32,129 nt of DNA from Bacillota bacterium (GTDB taxonomy: Bacteria; Bacillota; Bacilli; Alicyclobacillales; SLC66), in the NCBI GenBank assembly GCA_021793015.1, contig JAJYTO010000013.1:1-32129 (forward strand), read 5' to 3'. This document shows, piece after piece, positions 11,028 to 20,957 of the stretch. Within the stretch, counting starts at the first letter, position 1, and each line of letters opens with the position of its first letter. Under the pieces are notes generated by a model. The model saw only the letters and a program-made list of their open reading frames with translations. It made no database searches and had not been told where the DNA came from. The position numbers were made by a program, and so were the translations under genes.

Positions 11028-11185
11028 ACCGCTCCCCCCACCCGCAAGTGATGGGATGAGCGTAACGAACAAACGCGGTTTGCACCATGCCGCTTTGCAT
11101 AGAAACAAAACGCATGACAGAAAGGACGCCCTATCCCGTCGCATGATCGCGATGGCAACACATCGCCGTGACTGCCTGCTCGAGT

Positions 11186-12451
11186 CTACTTCCAAGTTAG
11201 ACCTCCGTTTATTGTTTTCAATACTCTGGTAGATACTGCTGAACTGATTCCGTTTACGTTCTCCACCATCATCCACCCGACTTCCGGCGTCACCATATTC
11301 AACTGTTGAACGCTGTAACCATCGTAAAGCATGCTGGCCAAAGCGCCCGTGACCGGAACCGACGACCATGACTGTCCGGCATTATGCGTACGCACGAGAT
11401 CAGTTCCCGTACTGCCGACAATCCAGCCGATGTTCGGGTTCAAAAAGCACGATACCAAAGGCAACTGATTCCCGAGCGAGACCGTCGTCCCGGCCGTCCA
11501 CGCTTTTCCGCCATTTGTCGTATGATAGCTCACAAGTGCATTGGGACGGCCCATGAACTCAAACGGAATGGTTCCCGACTCACCTGAAAACACGGGCTGG
11601 TATCCAACCGTGGCAAAAAATTTGCGCTGAAACGGCCTGGGAACAGGAAGCCGAATCGGATACCAGGTCCTGCCCGCCGTTGTCGAATGGTACAACATGG
11701 CAATAGACTTTTGCGTCAGCATGAAATTCCCTGTCGCAATCCAACCTTCATTGGCGTTCGTGAACACCATGGGCATGGGAACGTCGAACTCCGGCAAAGC
11801 ATGCGGAGTAGCCTTCTTGTTCGGGACGTATCCGCCAGTTGACGACATAAGCTTCCACGACTGACCCCTATTGGTTGTCCCGAAGATAGAGGTATCGCCC
11901 TGGTTCATCGCTCCACCGGAAAAAGTCCGGATCCATCCATTTTGATCAGAACTGAAACTGATTTGCTGGACGTAGTTGGCAACCGGCAGAACTTCCTGCA
12001 TATGCCGCGTCCAAGTGCGACCGCCATCCGTGGTTCGAAGCACGGTGAGCCTGTTGACTTGGCCCACTTTCGCAATCCAGGCAATCCAGCCCATTTTCGT
12101 CGACACAAAGAGAACCGTCGGCGCCGGACTACCCTGATTGGGGTCGTACTTCGGAACCCAGGGCACCGCATGACGAACCCAGCGAGAACCTCCGTCGTCC
12201 GTTGTCCATACGCTGAATCGGTTATGCCAGTACCCCGCATCGAATCCCGTTTGAGGATCCGTCATGTCGATAGCGGTCAGAAACGATGCTTGAGTGGCTG
12301 ACGACAAACTGCCTTGCAAGGCTAAGGGAGGAGGAGTTGCGGACATGGCGGTATCTTGCGCCAATTGGTATCTTGGCACCCCTCCAGTGGTAAGAACGCT
12401 ACAGGCAAGCAAAGGGCAAAGCAATCCTACTGCCCAGGATGTCCAACTCAT
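11186..12451 (-). CDS. BNR-repeat / Ycf48-like beta-propeller lipoprotein
   Basis: Repeated TTDGGRTWTRHM, TTNRGQSWKLM, TTAGRTWYPI, TTNGGKAWTAG, THNAGQSWSSV, TINGGLTWK motifs; N-terminal hydrophobic stretch with LLAC lipobox-like sequence. Start chosen at ATG 12451 (SD GAGGTG). Confidence 0.8.
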   Translation of the reverse strand: MSWTSWAVGLLCPLLACSVLTTGGVPRYQLAQDTAMSATPPPLALQGSLSSATQASFLTAIDMTDPQTGFDAGYWHNRFSVWTTDDGGSRWVRHAVPWVPKYDPNQGSPAPTVLFVSTKMGWIAWIAKVGQVNRLTVLRTTDGGRTWTRHMQEVLPVANYVQQISFSSDQNGWIRTFSGGAMNQGDTSIFGTTNRGQSWKLMSSTGGYVPNKKATPHALPEFDVPMPMVFTNANEGWIATGNFMLTQKSIAMLYHSTTAGRTWYPIRLPVPRPFQRKFFATVGYQPVFSGESGTIPFEFMGRPNALVSYHTTNGGKAWTAGTTVSLGNQLPLVSCFLNPNIGWIVGSTGTDLVRTHNAGQSWSSVPVTGALASMLYDGYSVQQLNMVTPEVGWMMVENVNGISSAVSTRVLKTINGGLTWK

Positions 12452-12556
12452 GTCAATCACCTCAACCATCTGACGATGCGGACGGTCCTGAGGTTACGTC
12501 AACCAATTCTGCGTAACTGATTGCCGCACCTTCCTGCCCCAGCGACATCACGCTGG

Positions 12557-12594
12557 CCAAGCGGGAACACCTATTCATGCAATTACCCGCTTGG
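12557..12594. repeat. Inverted repeat (9-bp stem, 20-nt loop)
   Basis: CCAAGCGGG...CCCGCTTGG in the BNR/isochorismatase intergenic region; no T-tract. Confidence 0.5.
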
Positions 12595-12643
12595 CGGGCT
12601 TATTCAGCATTTGCACCCAATAGCGACATAGAACGTGCTGCAT

Positions 12644-13204
12644 TCAGCGCGACACGTGGCTGAAACTGTCCAGGAATTCTTGGGAAGCCACAATCCGAGC
12701 CCCCCACCTTTTTAGGTTCACAAGAGCCTTGTCTCGTTTAAAATCAGAAGCGCCAGCAACGGCATCACTTAGCACCGTAACTTCAAACCCACTCTTCAGA
12801 GCGTGTTTTGCCGTAGCCGACACGCATCCTTCCGCGAACAAACCTACAATTACGAGACGGCGAAGTTTGTTTTTCGTGAGGTATTCAAGCAAGAGTGGGT
12901 TAGTTAGCGCACTACCCACCTTCTTGGTGAAGTACACGTCATTGATGACATGTAGACGATCATCCAGTTTGGTGCCTGATGACCCTTTGATAGCCGCGTT
13001 ATTACGAAATAGGTTTGAAATCCACTGCACTCGTTCAAATTCATTCCTAATATAGATGATGAGGAATTGATTGCTATGCGAATAGTCAATCACCCTGTTT
13101 ATTTGTTGTAGCATTGAAATACCTTGATGTTTTGCAACAGGCATCCGTGCATTATTAGCCAAGAAATCATTCTGAACATCTATAACAAGGACTGCTGTAT
13201 TCAC
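12644..13204 (-). CDS. Isochorismatase-like cysteine hydrolase
   Basis: MNTAVLVIDVQNDFL...FTKKVGSALTNPLLLEYLTKNKLRRLVIVGLFAEGCVSATAKHALKSGFEVTVLSDAVAG. Confidence 0.88.
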   Translation of the reverse strand: MNTAVLVIDVQNDFLANNARMPVAKHQGISMLQQINRVIDYSHSNQFLIIYIRNEFERVQWISNLFRNNAAIKGSSGTKLDDRLHVINDVYFTKKVGSALTNPLLLEYLTKNKLRRLVIVGLFAEGCVSATAKHALKSGFEVTVLSDAVAGASDFKRDKALVNLKRWGARIVASQEFLDSFSHVSR

Positions 13205-13383
13205 TTGCCCTATCCGCCCATCCCGTACGTAATGTAACCGTATTAGAAAAAACCCAACTATACCTATTTATAGCAATAGACTCGATATTGCACACTTCTC
13301 CCGAATGCGCACACAACGGTCTGTTCCCATTCTACTGCATTTTTGCACCCATTACCTGAAGAAGGGAGCCAATACTATCCGAC

Positions 13384-13854
13384 TTAATCCCATATGTTCG
13401 GGCGTGATATTCCTGTACTTCTCATACATTGAAGGAACTGACCTGTATGCACGGATTCATGGTACGCAATGCGATTCAACATATCCCCATAAGTTCTAAC
13501 GTATCCAACGTTCGAACGGTCAAGTTCCCGTGTCATTAACTCTTCTTCAGAAAGGCTTCGGACAAAAGAGATAAAGTCCTCAAAATACCGGATAGACCTG
13601 GATATTTCAATCTCTACGCTTGTTATAGGATCATGTTCGAATGGTTCCTCATAATGCGGTAATGACCGACCCAACTTTAGCGATTCATGATAGTACACTT
13701 GGCTTGTCCAAACATGGCGAATGGTCTCACCAAAAGAAAACGCCTCGTCATCTGGCTTCCATGTCAACCATTCATCGGGCAGGGCTCGCCACAGTTTGAT
13801 TGACCTTCTTCGAACCTCTTGGAAATTTAACACTGCCAGTTCACTCGCATTCAT
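13384..13854 (-). CDS. DinB-superfamily protein
   Basis: Helical-bundle pattern with FGETIRHVWTSQVYY and RIAYHESVHTGQFLQCMR; SD GGAGG upstream of ATG 13854. Confidence 0.75.
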   Translation of the reverse strand: MNASELAVLNFQEVRRRSIKLWRALPDEWLTWKPDDEAFSFGETIRHVWTSQVYYHESLKLGRSLPHYEEPFEHDPITSVEIEISRSIRYFEDFISFVRSLSEEELMTRELDRSNVGYVRTYGDMLNRIAYHESVHTGQFLQCMRSTGISRPNIWD

Positions 13855-13926
13855 CTTAACTTGCCTCCATTCCACCCCGTCTTATAAAATACTAAGGGAA
13901 TTTACCTCACATGCTGGGCGCAGGAA

Positions 13927-14337
13927 CTAGGGCCCGGTGTTTTGTGGGGGAGTCGATTCCCCCACAAATTGACGCGCATGATCCAGAATTGTTTCGGCGT
14001 AGCTAATAGCCGCCTTGGCTTCCTCCAAATCAACATCGGTGAGCACCTCGGGCTCGTAACGCATATCTATGGAGTACTCATTTAAGACGGCCGATTCTAA
14101 CGTGTATTCCGGAAACGCAGGCTGGGAGACGCGGATGGCATCGACCAATCGACTCAAGTCATGCGTCTTCGGAAAGGTTGTGATTTCGTGCAACAACACC
14201 GCCTTCAAAGCTTTCTCGGCGGCTTGTTGAGCGTGATAACACGCGTTATGGTAAAGACCCGGAACGAGCAGTCGACGGGCGGTTTCCAGGTCCGCCGTCG
14301 CTAGATCAAGAAGGCCGGAAGGCACGGGATTCGCCAT
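13927..14337 (-). CDS. HEPN domain protein (putative toxin of HEPN/MNT pair)
   Basis: DLETARRLLVPGLYHNACYHAQQAAEKALKAVLL...KTHDLSRLVDAI; start overlaps the 3' end of the MNT gene. Confidence 0.85.
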   Translation of the reverse strand: MANPVPSGLLDLATADLETARRLLVPGLYHNACYHAQQAAEKALKAVLLHEITTFPKTHDLSRLVDAIRVSQPAFPEYTLESAVLNEYSIDMRYEPEVLTDVDLEEAKAAISYAETILDHARQFVGESTPPQNTGP

Positions 14338-14641
14338 ACACCCAACATCCTTTTTGAAGAATTTCTTGAATCACGGGATGTCCTTCGGATACCGCCTTTT
14401 GAAGTTCTTCCGGCGTGCGCACCAAAATGTCCGCCGCGATGACTCGCGGCCGGAGCGCCATTTGATATTTGATTCCCCGCTGCCGACGGATGTCTGCTTT
14501 GCGTTCGATAACCAGGAAATCGAAGTCGCTGTCGTCATTTGCCGCGAGGCTCGCTTCCGACCCGAAAAGAACAATGGCTTCCGGGTGCCCCGCTGCCACC
14601 ATCTTTTGGACATAGTCGTTGAGAATCGCTGCGCGGTCCAT
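14306..14641 (-). CDS. MNT-type nucleotidyltransferase (putative antitoxin of HEPN/MNT pair)
   Basis: AIVLFGSEASLAANDDSDFDFLVIE matches GSx10DxD; VIAADILVRTPEEL. Overlaps HEPN ORF by 32 bp. Confidence 0.85.
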   Translation of the reverse strand: MDRAAILNDYVQKMVAAGHPEAIVLFGSEASLAANDDSDFDFLVIERKADIRRQRGIKYQMALRPRVIAADILVRTPEELQKAVSEGHPVIQEILQKGCWVYGESRAFRPS

Positions 14642-14692
14642 TAAGACACCTCCCTGCGCCTTAGTATAGCATGCGCAGTCAAAAACGCATGT

Positions 14693-15832
14693 TCATTTGT
14701 GCATCCTGATCTGTCTCTTTCCTTCAGCTACAGAGCAGGCGAAGCGCGGCCAGCGACGGCTGACCGCTCCGCTGGAGGAGACAAGCGGATGAGGCAACGG
14801 TCGGCCGCACGCCACGTCCAGCAGGGTGCCGAAGATGGACGGGTTCTCCACCACGAAGAGATGCGCGGGCGCTTGGCAAAAAGTCAGGCGTTCCACCTCC
14901 CACAGGGTCAAGGCAACCGGGTGCTCCGCGATCTCCGGGAAACCGGCAATCCACACGATGGAACAGATGTCGTCCAGCACCAGTCCAAATCGGGCATACA
15001 GCGTGCGGACAGCATCGCTGTCCAACTCCGGGCCGGGAGTGCCCCCCGCCGCAGCGTCATCGCGGTCCCTCTCCGTTTCTGCACGAGCATCGCCTGGCCC
15101 ATCCTCCATCTCCCGCAGCGCAACCAAGCCCCAGAAGAACATGCGCCCCGCCAACCCCGACCGATCCAACCCATGCGCGTCCCCGGTCGTCTTCGCCGCA
15201 AACACCGGAAGGCGAACACCGCTACGGCGCCCGCCTGGTCGACGGAGCAATGCCTCAAGTGCCGCGATGGCGGCGGTCCAACCGAGAGAGTCGCCACGCT
15301 GTAAGAACTCCTGCCAGCACTCCCGAAACGCCCGATACCCGGGTCCGCTGCCTCCAGCCAGCGCCTGCCACCAGACAGTCAGCGGCGGGTTCGAAGTCCG
15401 CGCGCCCGCCCATGCACAGAACGTGTCCCATGCCGCAACTTCCGTTTCGCGCTGGCGCCTCCTGCTGATAAATTCGCCCGGGTAGAGAACGTGCATGCAG
15501 TCCTCCAGCGACACGTCAAACCGTGTCCGCCGCAGCGCTTCGTCCAGGCGTTTCAGATCCACGTCGACGCTGCTCTCGCCGTGCAGGTTGTCGGTGAGCA
15601 CCTCGAGATCGCGCTGACACAGTTCCTCCGTGTAATCCGCCAACAGTCCCCAGGCCATGACGTCGGCAAACACGTCTTCCGTCTTCAGCCAATACTTCAT
15701 CTTGCTGTGATTCTCATAGAAGAGCCGCATGATCAAGCGATACCGCGCTACGTGGTCCGCGTTCAGATACTTTAGTTCCGGTACGGGTTTTATCCAGAGC
15801 TCACTCGCCTGGTTTCGGCTCAAGGCACTCAT
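14693..15832 (-). pseudogene. Decayed Wadjet-type chimera: JetA (DUF2397) N-terminus fused to JetD (DUF2399) with frameshifted C-terminus
   Basis: N-part KYLNADHVARYRLIMRLFYENHSKMKYWLKTEDVFADV...YTEELCQRDLEVLTDNL resembles the TIGR02677/DUF2397 start. From SSVDVDLKRLDEALRRTRFDVSLEDCMHVL on, including LPVFAAKTTGDAHGLDRSGLAGRMF, LDDICSIVWIAGFP and LFVVENPSIFGTLL, it resembles TIGR02679/DUF2399. No JetB or JetC in between. Confidence 0.7.
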
Positions 15833-15915
15833 CCTCTGCAATACGACCGACTCCACATCACCAGTATAGTGAATGCTTAACACACCCGCCCCCCTATGCA
15901 ATGGAAAGTATAGGA

Positions 15916-16461
15916 TCAGTGTGGACCGGCGGCAGCCCCATGCATACGTCTACACACGTCGGATTCGCCCCGCCCGAAAATCCGGGCACTGTCCATCCCA
16001 CGGCGGAGATGTCTGTCCGCCGCTGTGATCCGGGTGAAGAATGCGCGCGTACGCTTCGTATCCCGGCGGCACGACCGAGTTTTCCAGTTGAGTGTTGAAC
16101 GGATAGAGACGGTTGACAAGCCAGTCCGCAACCGACACTTCTTCTGACGGAACTCCATGTCACACAGCGCCCGCGCCGCCTCTGTCGCATATCCCTGTCC
16201 CCAGAAGTCGGGGTGCAGGCAATAGCCGAGCGAACCCTGGGCGTGCGGGTGAACATCCAGTTTGCGCCTGCCAATGAATCTCCCATCAGTTCGCATAGAA
16301 AAGTGGCATCGTGGACGATTGGTTCGTGGTACAATGCTTGGCAAGTAGTGTCTCTGACGGTCACTGGGATCGAACTCGGCGCATAGCCGACCGATGAACG
16401 CCACCACAGGAACTGAGGGAATTCCCATGCTGAATCCGGGATTGTATGAGCAGGTCGTCAA
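15916..16461 (-). pseudogene. Degenerate GNAT acetyltransferase fragment joined to another gene fragment
   Basis: GNAT-like GRFIGRRKLDVHPHAQGSLGYCLHPDFWGQGYATEAARALCDMEF, then coding sense shifts to another frame reading VSVADWLVNRLYPFNTQLENSVVPPGYEAYARILHPDHSGG. Confidence 0.55.
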
Positions 16462-19400
16462 TCAGTTGATAAGGACCGGACTGGACAAATTGGACAAGCA
16501 GTCCCTATACGCCGAAACGGATCGACTGGACGAGGCTGAATCTGCAGGAGCATTGGCACAGTACATGGGCGAGGTCGTGAAGGCGGCCCTTTCCGGTGTA
16601 AATCGCGGCAATGCGCTTCACGACCGCATCGACCTTTGCAACCGGATGATCCATCTGCTCGCAGAAAGGACAGGCGACCCACGTCTGCGCGACTATCTCA
16701 TTCACGCAGATGCACAACTCCTGCTCGCTTTGCTGAACAGGCGCGACACCGCCCAAGGTATCGTACGCGGCGCGGACATGGCCAAGATCCGGCCTGTCAC
16801 GTCCATTGCCCACAGTTCCCTGTTCACCGGCGCCCCGAGTGAACCGAGCATGGTGGTCGAGCTCAAGAGAGAAATCCTGACGAGCGATCGGATTGACATG
16901 CTGGTCTCCTTCATCAAATGGAGCGGACTGCGACTTCTGATGGACGAACTCCGTGAATTCGCGAAGTCGCGTCCCCTGCGCATCATCACCACTCCCTACA
17001 TGGGCGCGACTGACATCAAGGCAATCGACGAGTTGCATGGTCTTCCGAACACGTCCATTCGCATTTCCTACGATACCGGCCGCACCCGCCTTCACGCCAA
17101 GACTTACATCTTTCATCGGATCACGGGTTTTTCGACCGCCTATGTGGGATCGTCCAACCTGTCCAATGCAGCGCTCTCCAGCGGACTGGAATGGAACGTC
17201 AAGGTCACAGCCAAAGATCTGCCGGAGACGTTCGACAAGATCGAGAAGACATTTGACAGCTACTGGCACGACGAACAGTTCACTGCGTATGGCGACGCCC
17301 AGCGGCCATTGCTTGTACATGCACTGCGGGCGGAGAACCGTCAGGGCGAGAATGCTGCAGGTTTCACGTTCGATATCACGCCATACGGATATCAGAAAGA
17401 GATCCTTGAGGCGCTGGACGCCGAGCGGCGCATCCGCGGACATCATCGCAACCTGATCGTAGCCGCTACGGGTACTGGCAAGACGGTCATCTCGGCATTC
17501 GACTACAGGAGGTTCTGCGAAACGCACCGCTCCAGTGCCAACCGCCTCCTGTTTGTAGCGCATCGCGAGGAAATACTGACGCAGAGTCGCGACTGTTTCC
17601 GCACCGTCCTGCGCGACCAGAACTTCGGCGAACTGTTTGTCGGCGGTCACGAACCATCCAGTCTCGACCACCTGTTCGTCTCGATCCAGATGATGAACGC
17701 GCGGGACTTCACCGCCGCCACATCGCCAAAGCACTTTGACTTCATCATCGTCGACGAATTCCATCACGCCGCAGCGGACACGTACCAGAAGCTACTCGCC
17801 TACTACCAGCCGTCCGTACTGCTTGGCTTGACCGCCACACCCGAACGCCTGGATGCTAGAGACGTAACCGGGTACTTTGACGGACGCATCACCGCGGAGA
17901 TTCGCCTGCCGGAGGCGATCGACAGGAACCTGCTTGCCCCTTTTCAATATTTCGGCGTGTCGGATAGCGTCGACCTGCGCAACCTGACGTGGCGACGGGG
18001 CGGCTACGACGCAGGCGAACTGAGCCATCTCTATACGGGCAATCGGCAGCGCGCCGACCTGGTGCTGCGTTCGCTCCACCGCTACGTCTCTGACCTCTGT
18101 GCCGTCATTGGCCTCGGCTTTTGTGCGTCCATCAAACACGCGGAATTCATGGCCGCCTTCATGAACCGGCATGGCATCCCATCCCGGGCGCTTCATGCCG
18201 GATCGCCTGCCGCAGAGAGAGTAACCGCAAGACAGGCGCTGGCGCGCGGAGATCTGAAGTTCATTTTCGTCGTCGATCTGTACAACGAGGGGATTGACAT
18301 CCCTGAGATCAACACGATTCTCTTCCTGCGCCCCACCGCGAGTCTGACGGTCTTCCTGCAGCAACTCGGCCGGGGCCTGCGCCATGCCGCGGGAAAGGAC
18401 TGCCTTACAGTCCTCGATTTCATCGGCCAGTCCCACCGCAAATACCGCTTTGAAGAGAAACTGGCCGCGCTTCTGGAACGCTCCCGGCGCAGATCACTCC
18501 TCGCCGAGGTCAGAGACGGATTCCTGAACGTTCCCCGCGCCTGTCACATCCAATTGGAAAGACAGGCGCGGGAATACGTGCTCGAGAACATCCGGCACGC
18601 GATCGGTTCGCGTCAGGGGATTATCGAGCGCGTTCGCACGTTTGCAGAGGATACAGGCGAGCCGATCACGATCGCCAATTTCGTCCGGTACTACCACATG
18701 ACGGCGAGAGATCTGTACCGCGGCGCGTCTCCCCTCAGTTTTGCGCGCCTGTGCGTGCAAGTCGGGGTTCGTGACAAATTTGCAGATCCAGATGAATCCG
18801 TCCTCGCCAGAGCCCTCTCCCGCATCAGCGCGATCAATTCCCGCCCCTGGATCGATTTTCTCCTGAACTGCCTAGAGGGACCGTCCATGTCAGGGCGTGA
18901 CGCATTCAGCCCGCTTGAGAGACAGATGCTTCTGATGTTCCACTACACGGTCTGGCAAAAACCGCTGAACCAGTGCGGCTTCGGCTCTATGTCCGAAACG
19001 GTGGAGTCGACGCGCAATAATCCTGTGCTCTGCGCCGAAATCTGTGAGATTCTGCGGTTGAACCTTCTGCAGATCGACTTCGTGGAGGAACCGGTTGAAC
19101 TGGGATACGAGAGCATCCTCAATCTTCACTGCAGCTACACGCGCGACCAGATCCTCGCCGCGCTCGGATTTTACACCGAAGACAGGATGCCGGCCATGCG
19201 CGAGGGCGTCAAGCGTCTTGAGGAGAAAAAACTCGACGTGTTTTTCATCACTCTGAACAAGTCCGACAAGGACTACTCTCCGACCACCATGTACCAGGAC
19301 TACGCGATCAGCGACGTACTGTTCCACTGGCAATCGCAAAGCACCACGCCCGCCGATTCGCCGACCGGACAGCGCTACATCCACCACAGGGAGACGGGTG

Positions 19401-19585
19401 ACCGCGTTCTCCTGTTTGTGCGCGAATGGAAATCCGACGGATCAGGATCGCTCCCCTACACCTTCCTTGGGACAGCGAGCTATGTGCAGCACAGCGGATC
19501 ACGACCCATGAACATCACCTGGCGCCTGCACCGCCCGATGCCTGCGTCCATGCTGCGCAAGGCCAATCAGCTTGTCGTCGGATGA
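16427..19585 (+). CDS. PLD-like domain + DEAD/DEAH (SF2) helicase + DUF3427 protein
   Basis: PLD-like RLHAKTYIFHRITGFSTAYVGSSNLSNAAL; Walker A AATGTGKTVISAFDY; IIVDEFHHAAADTY; helicase C FLQQLGRGLRHAAGKDCLTVLDFIG; C-terminal DYSPTTMYQDYAISDVLFHWQSQS (DUF3427-like). Start ATG 16427 preferred (SD GAGGGA). Confidence 0.9.
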   Translation: MLNPGLYEQVVNQLIRTGLDKLDKQSLYAETDRLDEAESAGALAQYMGEVVKAALSGVNRGNALHDRIDLCNRMIHLLAERTGDPRLRDYLIHADAQLLLALLNRRDTAQGIVRGADMAKIRPVTSIAHSSLFTGAPSEPSMVVELKREILTSDRIDMLVSFIKWSGLRLLMDELREFAKSRPLRIITTPYMGATDIKAIDELHGLPNTSIRISYDTGRTRLHAKTYIFHRITGFSTAYVGSSNLSNAALSSGLEWNVKVTAKDLPETFDKIEKTFDSYWHDEQFTAYGDAQRPLLVHALRAENRQGENAAGFTFDITPYGYQKEILEALDAERRIRGHHRNLIVAATGTGKTVISAFDYRRFCETHRSSANRLLFVAHREEILTQSRDCFRTVLRDQNFGELFVGGHEPSSLDHLFVSIQMMNARDFTAATSPKHFDFIIVDEFHHAAADTYQKLLAYYQPSVLLGLTATPERLDARDVTGYFDGRITAEIRLPEAIDRNLLAPFQYFGVSDSVDLRNLTWRRGGYDAGELSHLYTGNRQRADLVLRSLHRYVSDLCAVIGLGFCASIKHAEFMAAFMNRHGIPSRALHAGSPAAERVTARQALARGDLKFIFVVDLYNEGIDIPEINTILFLRPTASLTVFLQQLGRGLRHAAGKDCLTVLDFIGQSHRKYRFEEKLAALLERSRRRSLLAEVRDGFLNVPRACHIQLERQAREYVLENIRHAIGSRQGIIERVRTFAEDTGEPITIANFVRYYHMTARDLYRGASPLSFARLCVQVGVRDKFADPDESVLARALSRISAINSRPWIDFLLNCLEGPSMSGRDAFSPLERQMLLMFHYTVWQKPLNQCGFGSMSETVESTRNNPVLCAEICEILRLNLLQIDFVEEPVELGYESILNLHCSYTRDQILAALGFYTEDRMPAMREGVKRLEEKKLDVFFITLNKSDKDYSPTTMYQDYAISDVLFHWQSQSTTPADSPTGQRYIHHRETGDRVLLFVREWKSDGSGSLPYTFLGTASYVQHSGSRPMNITWRLHRPMPASMLRKANQLVVG

Positions 19586-19828
19586 CCCCTGCTCCTTAGA
19601 CGCTGGCGAAACTCCCGCACCTCATCAGATCTCCCGCCCCCAATGCAGACGGACACGTCACAGCGCCAACTCGCGCCTAAGAAAAACGGCGATGGCCATA
19701 ACGCGCAGGACCACGGTCAGGACCGCCCGTAAAACCGAAGCGGCGGAAAAACGCTCGTGACCATGAAGCAGGTTCTACGGATCGAACACGGTGAACAGGA
19801 ACAGAGGAAGACACAGCTCATGCCGGCC

Positions 19829-20320
19829 TTATCTGCGAAAGCGGGCAGACTTGGCGCGCGTGCGAAAGCGGCTGGCCGTTGAACTGCGATGATGACCGCC
19901 GCGCCAGAAGGCGACGACGCCCGCCGTCGCGAGGAGTCCTATCCAGAGAGCTATCGCAGGCCCGATCGTCTGCGATTCATAAGCGGGTTCAAACGTAATC
20001 GTCGTGGGCGTGTGCGCTTCAATGCTCACGAATTGGCCATCCGCCGCAAACGTCCTCGCGTCGCCGGGCAACAGCACCGATTGGTAGGCGTCATAGAACT
20101 TCATCTGCCCTGACGAGTCCGTCCCGCCATAACGCCAGTCTCCGAGCACACCCTGCCCAATCGTTGTTTGCCGCAAAAATGGGTTGGCCGTTTGAAACGG
20201 GTCGGCGGCGATAAACATCCACAGCAAAAAAGCCAGAATCGCCCCGCCCAGGAGCATTAAAGACAAATGTGGACGCGAACCGGCTTTTTTTACACGTTTC
20301 TGTTGCGGACGACGAAGCAT
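19829..20320 (-). CDS. Hypothetical protein with two predicted transmembrane segments
   Basis: Start MLRRPQQKRVKKAGSR with G-rich SD; hydrophobic LSLMLLGGAILAFLLWMFIA and IGPAIALWIGLLATAGVVAFW. Confidence 0.6.
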   Translation of the reverse strand: MLRRPQQKRVKKAGSRPHLSLMLLGGAILAFLLWMFIAADPFQTANPFLRQTTIGQGVLGDWRYGGTDSSGQMKFYDAYQSVLLPGDARTFAADGQFVSIEAHTPTTITFEPAYESQTIGPAIALWIGLLATAGVVAFWRGGHHRSSTASRFRTRAKSARFRR

Positions 20321-20543
20321 TTTTCCCGCCCCCTGCCATTCATCAGAGACAGGCGCCACAGCGCGGCGCCTATGAATACTCTATGACAGGGGGCGGCCGC
20401 ATATCCTCTCCATTTGACATACCTATGGCCCTGCGACGCGACACACATTCGGTCCTTCATACCCTTGCGGCTAAAAATCGACGCCTCCGCAGTGACACGG
20501 AAGAATAGACGATTCGGGCCAGTCCGGACCTTGGAACAATCAA

Positions 20544-20828: not shown

Positions 20829-20957
20829 CTAGGGGACATGTGATAAACCAAATTTCGGCAGGCGCAGCGCGGTGCATATAGTGTTTGATTAAAGCCTCAA
20901 ACACTATATGTGAGATCATAGCGCCTGCTGTACGGACTTTATCACATGTCCCCCTAG
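20829..20957. mobile_element. Putative palindromic MITE/REP-like element with three nested inverted repeats
   Basis: Outer CTAGGGGACATGTGATAAA (20829-20847) / TTTATCACATGTCCCCCTAG (20938-20957); middle GCAGGCGC (20858-20865) / GCGCCTGC (20921-20928); inner CATATAGTGTTTGA (20875-20888) / TCAAACACTATATG (20897-20910). Confidence 0.7.

Follow-up and report, generated by a model that had tools for sequence, protein, structure and literature searches.

A fused jetA-jetD reading frame as the probable deletion scar of a type II Wadjet operon in a Bacillota genome

Introduction

Wadjet is a four-gene bacterial defence system against plasmids. Its type II form is JetA2-JetB2-JetC2-JetD2, the products being, in order, a DUF2397/TIGR02677 protein, a DUF2398 protein, a MukB-like protein and a DUF2399/TIGR02679 protein; JetC is the SMC motor of the system. 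In contig JAJYTO010000013.1 of a Bacillota bacterium (assembly GCA_021793015.1), whose 32,129 nucleotides are the whole stretch analysed here and are called the window, one minus-strand reading frame starts as JetA and continues as JetD. Is this fusion ORF a protein in use, a relic of a lost operon, or a product of faulty assembly? The comparisons below make it very probable that it is a pseudogene, left behind when an internal deletion took out most of a type II Wadjet operon (jetABCD). Its parts are as follows.

15590-15883, minus strand: jetA 5' end, 98 codons beginning with the GTG at 15883, which encode the JetA2/DUF2397 N-terminus (PADLOC, Pfam, tblastn)
15577-15602, minus strand: putative jetA/jetD deletion junction, at about 15590/15589 with an uncertainty of about 12 nucleotides (JetA DNA and protein homology ends at 15590; JetD homology starts at 15601-15589)
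14759-15589, minus strand: internal jetD, in frame with the jetA start, with DUF3323 and the first third of DUF2399/TOPRIM, VENP glutamate kept (PADLOC, Pfam, tblastn, alignment)
14759-14772, minus strand, position approximate: tandem 5-bp duplication (AGCGG doubled, AGCGGAGCGG) that shifts the reading frame
14724-14733, minus strand: second break point, where JetD homology ends, with a stop in JetD's own frame (LRLL-CS, then stop; alignment, tblastn)
14693-14758, minus strand: tail of the ORF, read out of frame and without homology as far as the TGA

Composition of the fusion frame

The fusion ORF runs from 15883 to its TGA stop at 14693 on the minus strand, in a frame that is open from 15901, has normal codon-position composition, and stays open for about 370 codons as far as the duplication. 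The GTG at 15883 is the likely start, because the intact JetA of relatives begins with matching sequence (VHYTDEVESVVLQRMSA) and because AGGGGGGC, a ribosome-binding site, lies just ahead of it. A promoter scan returned no sigma-70-like site near the ORF, a result of no weight for either reading. An earlier reading made from the sequence only had begun the frame at the ATG at 15832, which is 17 codons downstream of the GTG and inside the ORF; the alignment to intact JetA moves the start accordingly, and residue numbers of the two parts are counted here from that ATG.

Residues 10-81 match positions 4-75 of the 496 in the JetA2 profile (PADLOC PDLC00540, E=8.8e-26), and the JetA part also matches positions 2-62 of 483 in Pfam PF09660 (E=1.7e-15). 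Residues 74-357 match positions 49-313 of the 423 in the JetD2 profile (PADLOC PDLC00557, E=1.4e-34); the JetD part matches PF11796 (DUF3323, E=8.1e-32) as well and, weakly, PF09664 (0.0071, positions 2-56 of 152). The JetA2 and JetD2 matches are far beyond chance. Models TIGR02677 and TIGR02679 both hit the fusion ORF, each with a score far below cutoff, as fragments would be expected to give. The claim of the sequence-only reading that a JetA N-terminus is fused in frame to JetD is thereby borne out: each half matches a family of its own.

The junction and the missing genes

In tblastn comparisons with genome G052, the closest relative with an intact operon, JetA residues 4-98 align at 15874-15590 with 76% identity, and the JetD part shows 51% identity to the G052 JetD; the JetD of other relatives aligns from 15601 or 15589 onward. 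DNA similarity to jetA ends at one base, 15590-15591, across several relatives, and JetD is joined in frame from about its residue 69 onward, after about 98 JetA residues. All four genes of the G052 operon match the PADLOC type II profiles (JetA2-B2-C2-D2) along most or almost the whole of their length, and there the two break points lie about 7.0 kb apart, with jetB and jetC in between; in G070 the distance is about 6.9 kb. Because the break points are separated by some 7 kb in intact relatives, a deletion of about 6.9-7.0 kb is the simple account; it would have removed jetB and jetC entirely, the greater part of jetA, and some 68 codons from the start of jetD. The exact ends are fixed to about 12 nucleotides at best, and no microhomology is claimed; no intact allele at the same locus was found. 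Both the multi-kilobase deletion of these same genes and a junction near 15565-15600 had been proposed from the sequence only, and both agree with what the relatives show.

What remains of DUF2397 is N-terminal profile positions only, JetB (DUF2398) has no significant match within the window, and JetC has only chance-level matches in the window and, at E<=0.01, none in the rest of the assembly. As a fragmented draft of 321 contigs, the assembly is about 92% complete, and JetC could lie in the missing sequence, a point that counts against the pseudogene. That the two parts are homologous to JetA2 and JetD2, in an order and on a strand that fit the operon, indicates descent from Wadjet type II.

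Further damage in the 3' part of jetD

Where the fusion has the doubled AGCGG, the JetD of relatives runs on as ..SGQPSLAALRLLDELAGAGAILHYSGDFD.. The JetD frame returns, shifted, as SGQPSLAALRLL at 14768-14733, identical at 12 of 12 residues to positions 340-351 of the G052 JetD, and the last 20-odd codons of the fusion ORF are out-of-frame sequence. The fusion keeps the VENP glutamate but lacks the C-terminus and the TOPRIM aspartate motif, which reads YSGDFD in relatives, and so has no complete TOPRIM metal site of glutamate plus aspartate motif. Since homology ends before the aspartates, the fusion cannot be a JetD-type nuclease. The sequence-only reading had overlooked this frameshift and the loss of the TOPRIM aspartates. 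In MksG, a related nuclease, the substitutions E236A and D279A drastically impair cleavage (PMC10123090); we infer that the glutamate kept in the fusion and the aspartates lost from it may be the equivalents of MksG E236 and D279. A model of insertion, with the JetD C-terminus surviving past the neighbouring MNT/HEPN pair, was rejected, as tblastn found no JetD match there.

Genomic surroundings

11120-20086, no strand: variable segment of about 9 kb containing the scar, absent from G001 and G002 (same genus)
13927-14641, minus strand: apparently intact MNT nucleotidyltransferase/HEPN pair, abutting the 3' side of the scar (Pfam HEPN 9.4e-25, Polbeta 1.1e-05)
15916-16461, minus strand: partial GNAT acetyltransferase gene, close upstream of the scar (Pfam PF13302, 7.3e-11, profile positions 49-112 of 138 only)
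16394-19585, plus strand: full-length DUF3427 helicase/PLD type IV restriction-like protein (PADLOC mREase_IV, 3e-235)

Genomes G001 and G002 go nearly straight from the equivalent of 11119 to the equivalent of 20087 or 20548, and the segment is also absent from G006, which belongs to another genus. Gain of the segment in the lineage of the scar-bearing genome is the simplest reading; loss from the other genomes instead may still be the explanation. The DUF3427 helicase has a full-length relative, 63% identical, in G006. The scar appears to sit in a variable, defence-rich stretch with some debris around it. At 15950-16140, on the minus strand, a short piece reads VADWLVNRLYPFNTQLENSVVPPGYEAYARILHP in a frame that differs from that of the adjacent GNAT fragment; it has no Pfam match and is possibly a remnant of a further gene. 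A 69-residue upstream piece (VADWLVNRLYPF..) has neither a Pfam nor a plasmid match.

Beyond the segment, the sequence at 20087-20434 also occurs in G006, with weak DNA similarity, and short remnants of it are kept in G001 and G002. Positions 20832-20955 hold a near-perfect palindromic element of about 124 bp, with terminal GGGGACATGTGATAAA and CTAG on its flanks; G001 and G002 lack it at the corresponding position and show the empty site. Its 16-base terminus has 49 exact copies in the genome, against 0 for a reversed control. The element looks like a MITE, and its NCTAGN target presumably recalls IS481-type elements.

Relic, retained protein or assembly error

The pseudogene reading draws on the abrupt switch between two families within one frame, on the GNAT gene fragment that adjoins the scar, and on the occurrence of the fusion in a single genome. 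The same fusion is found in none of 59 genomes of the order, none of 399 of the phylum, and nowhere in viral, phage and plasmid collections; a related-locus search with the fusion as query returned nothing in genome or viral contigs, and a degenerate junction pattern run against 85,000 genomes hit 32 chance stretches, 0 of them related. As the searches of the order, the phylum and the viral, phage and plasmid collections yielded no further example, a conserved, normal two-domain protein is rejected, in keeping with the sequence-only reading, to which wide conservation would have run counter. The single plasmid match spanning into both halves proved to be the ordinary JetD of Alicyclobacillus dauci.

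About 370 open codons with no excess of broken conserved columns count against a pseudogene, yet a young deletion predicts the same. In a simulation of neutral change by substitutions only, no indels, a 370-codon frame survives in 48% of runs when divergence is 2%, in 16% when it is 5% and in 1% when it is 13%, a half-life of about 2% divergence. Since the frame often survives neutrally at low divergence, a young deletion suffices to explain it. The JetD part breaks 3 of 32 invariant columns (1/33 for G052, 3/35 each for G008 and G013), a breakage no higher than in intact JetDs on similar branches and no signal of relaxed constraint; this fits young deletion and retention alike.

It is quite improbable that the fusion is instead a two-domain protein kept in a new role, such as a regulator that binds DNA or JetD and has no nuclease activity. 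Such a protein would have the in-frame junction, the long open frame, the ribosome-binding site before the GTG, the normal codon-position composition and the lack of excess breakage among conserved residues seen here. However, an in-frame join arises by chance in one case of three, the neutral survival just described accounts for the frame, the C-terminus is frameshifted, the partner proteins are gone, and one genome alone carries the fusion. Between the relic and the retained protein that the sequence-only reading had left side by side, the relic is favoured, while retention is still allowed with nothing that positively supports it.

Less probable again is an error of assembly or binning at the junction in a strain with a full operon. 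The fragmentation of the draft would permit one, but to either side of the variable segment the contig keeps synteny with same-genus genomes, the jetA and jetD of relatives have no long common repeat at the junction to mislead an assembler, no jetC sequence occurs elsewhere in the assembly, and the 3' lesion is a separate event. Least probable of all is that a truncated, nuclease-dead JetA-JetD is made and kept, for example as a DNA-binding regulator or to interfere with an incoming Wadjet.

On the deletion reading, a type II operon would have lost about 7 kb internally, from about codon 98 of jetA to about codon 69 of jetD, and the 5-bp duplication and loss of the jetD 3' end beside the MNT/HEPN pair may have come before or after. 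Since JetC and JetB have gone, together with most of JetA and JetD's metal-binding aspartates, the locus would be unable to extrude plasmid DNA and cut it, and as regards Wadjet the host would be open to small plasmids. The fusion ORF is then probably a decaying relic without function. In itself such a relic is ordinary, and it offers a clear view of a plasmid-restricting operon being dismantled. Gene-by-gene annotation would call it JetD or a DUF3323 protein, and the strain could be miscounted as Wadjet-positive.

Wadjet decay elsewhere and comparison with known systems

Leaving aside one locus at a contig end and one below cutoff, the 399-genome phylum sample holds 60 full-length DUF2397 loci and 8 clearly broken ones (G000, two in G178, G183, G279, G308, G383 and G465), or about 8 of 68. 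This would put the broken share of DUF2397 loci in the phylum at about one in eight, several of them cut by internal deletion. Three broken Wadjet loci, in G465 (L091 2790-3900), G178 (L090 1700-5800) and G279 (L092 1600-3800), are missing jetB and go from a jetA start, at once or nearly so, to the C-terminal part of jetC; they look like independent internal deletions of jetA-to-jetC, of the same general type as the scar. In G053 (L025 9493-12900) about 2 kb with a 537-residue ORF, by its look an insertion element, splits jetD. For Clostridium cellulovorans, the spontaneous loss from a laboratory strain of some 23 kb that took in jetABCD is documented, and targeted deletion of jetABCD raised conjugative plasmid uptake by about five orders of magnitude (PMC12287153). 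Given these other broken loci and the loss in C. cellulovorans, Wadjet decay is ordinary.

Compared with Wadjet type II itself, the fusion has two halves homologous to JetA2 and JetD2, with jetA first, jetD last and both on the same strand, but jetB and jetC are gone from it, and so are four fifths of jetA, the first part of jetD, and the C-terminus with the TOPRIM aspartates. The loci of G465, G178 and G279 resemble it in having a jetA start joined to, or beside, a later gene of the operon; they differ in that jetC takes the place of jetD at the join and the cut in jetA lies further inside the gene. In C. cellulovorans, as at the scar, Wadjet was lost by deletion, there as a segment of about 23 kb that carried the operon with it.
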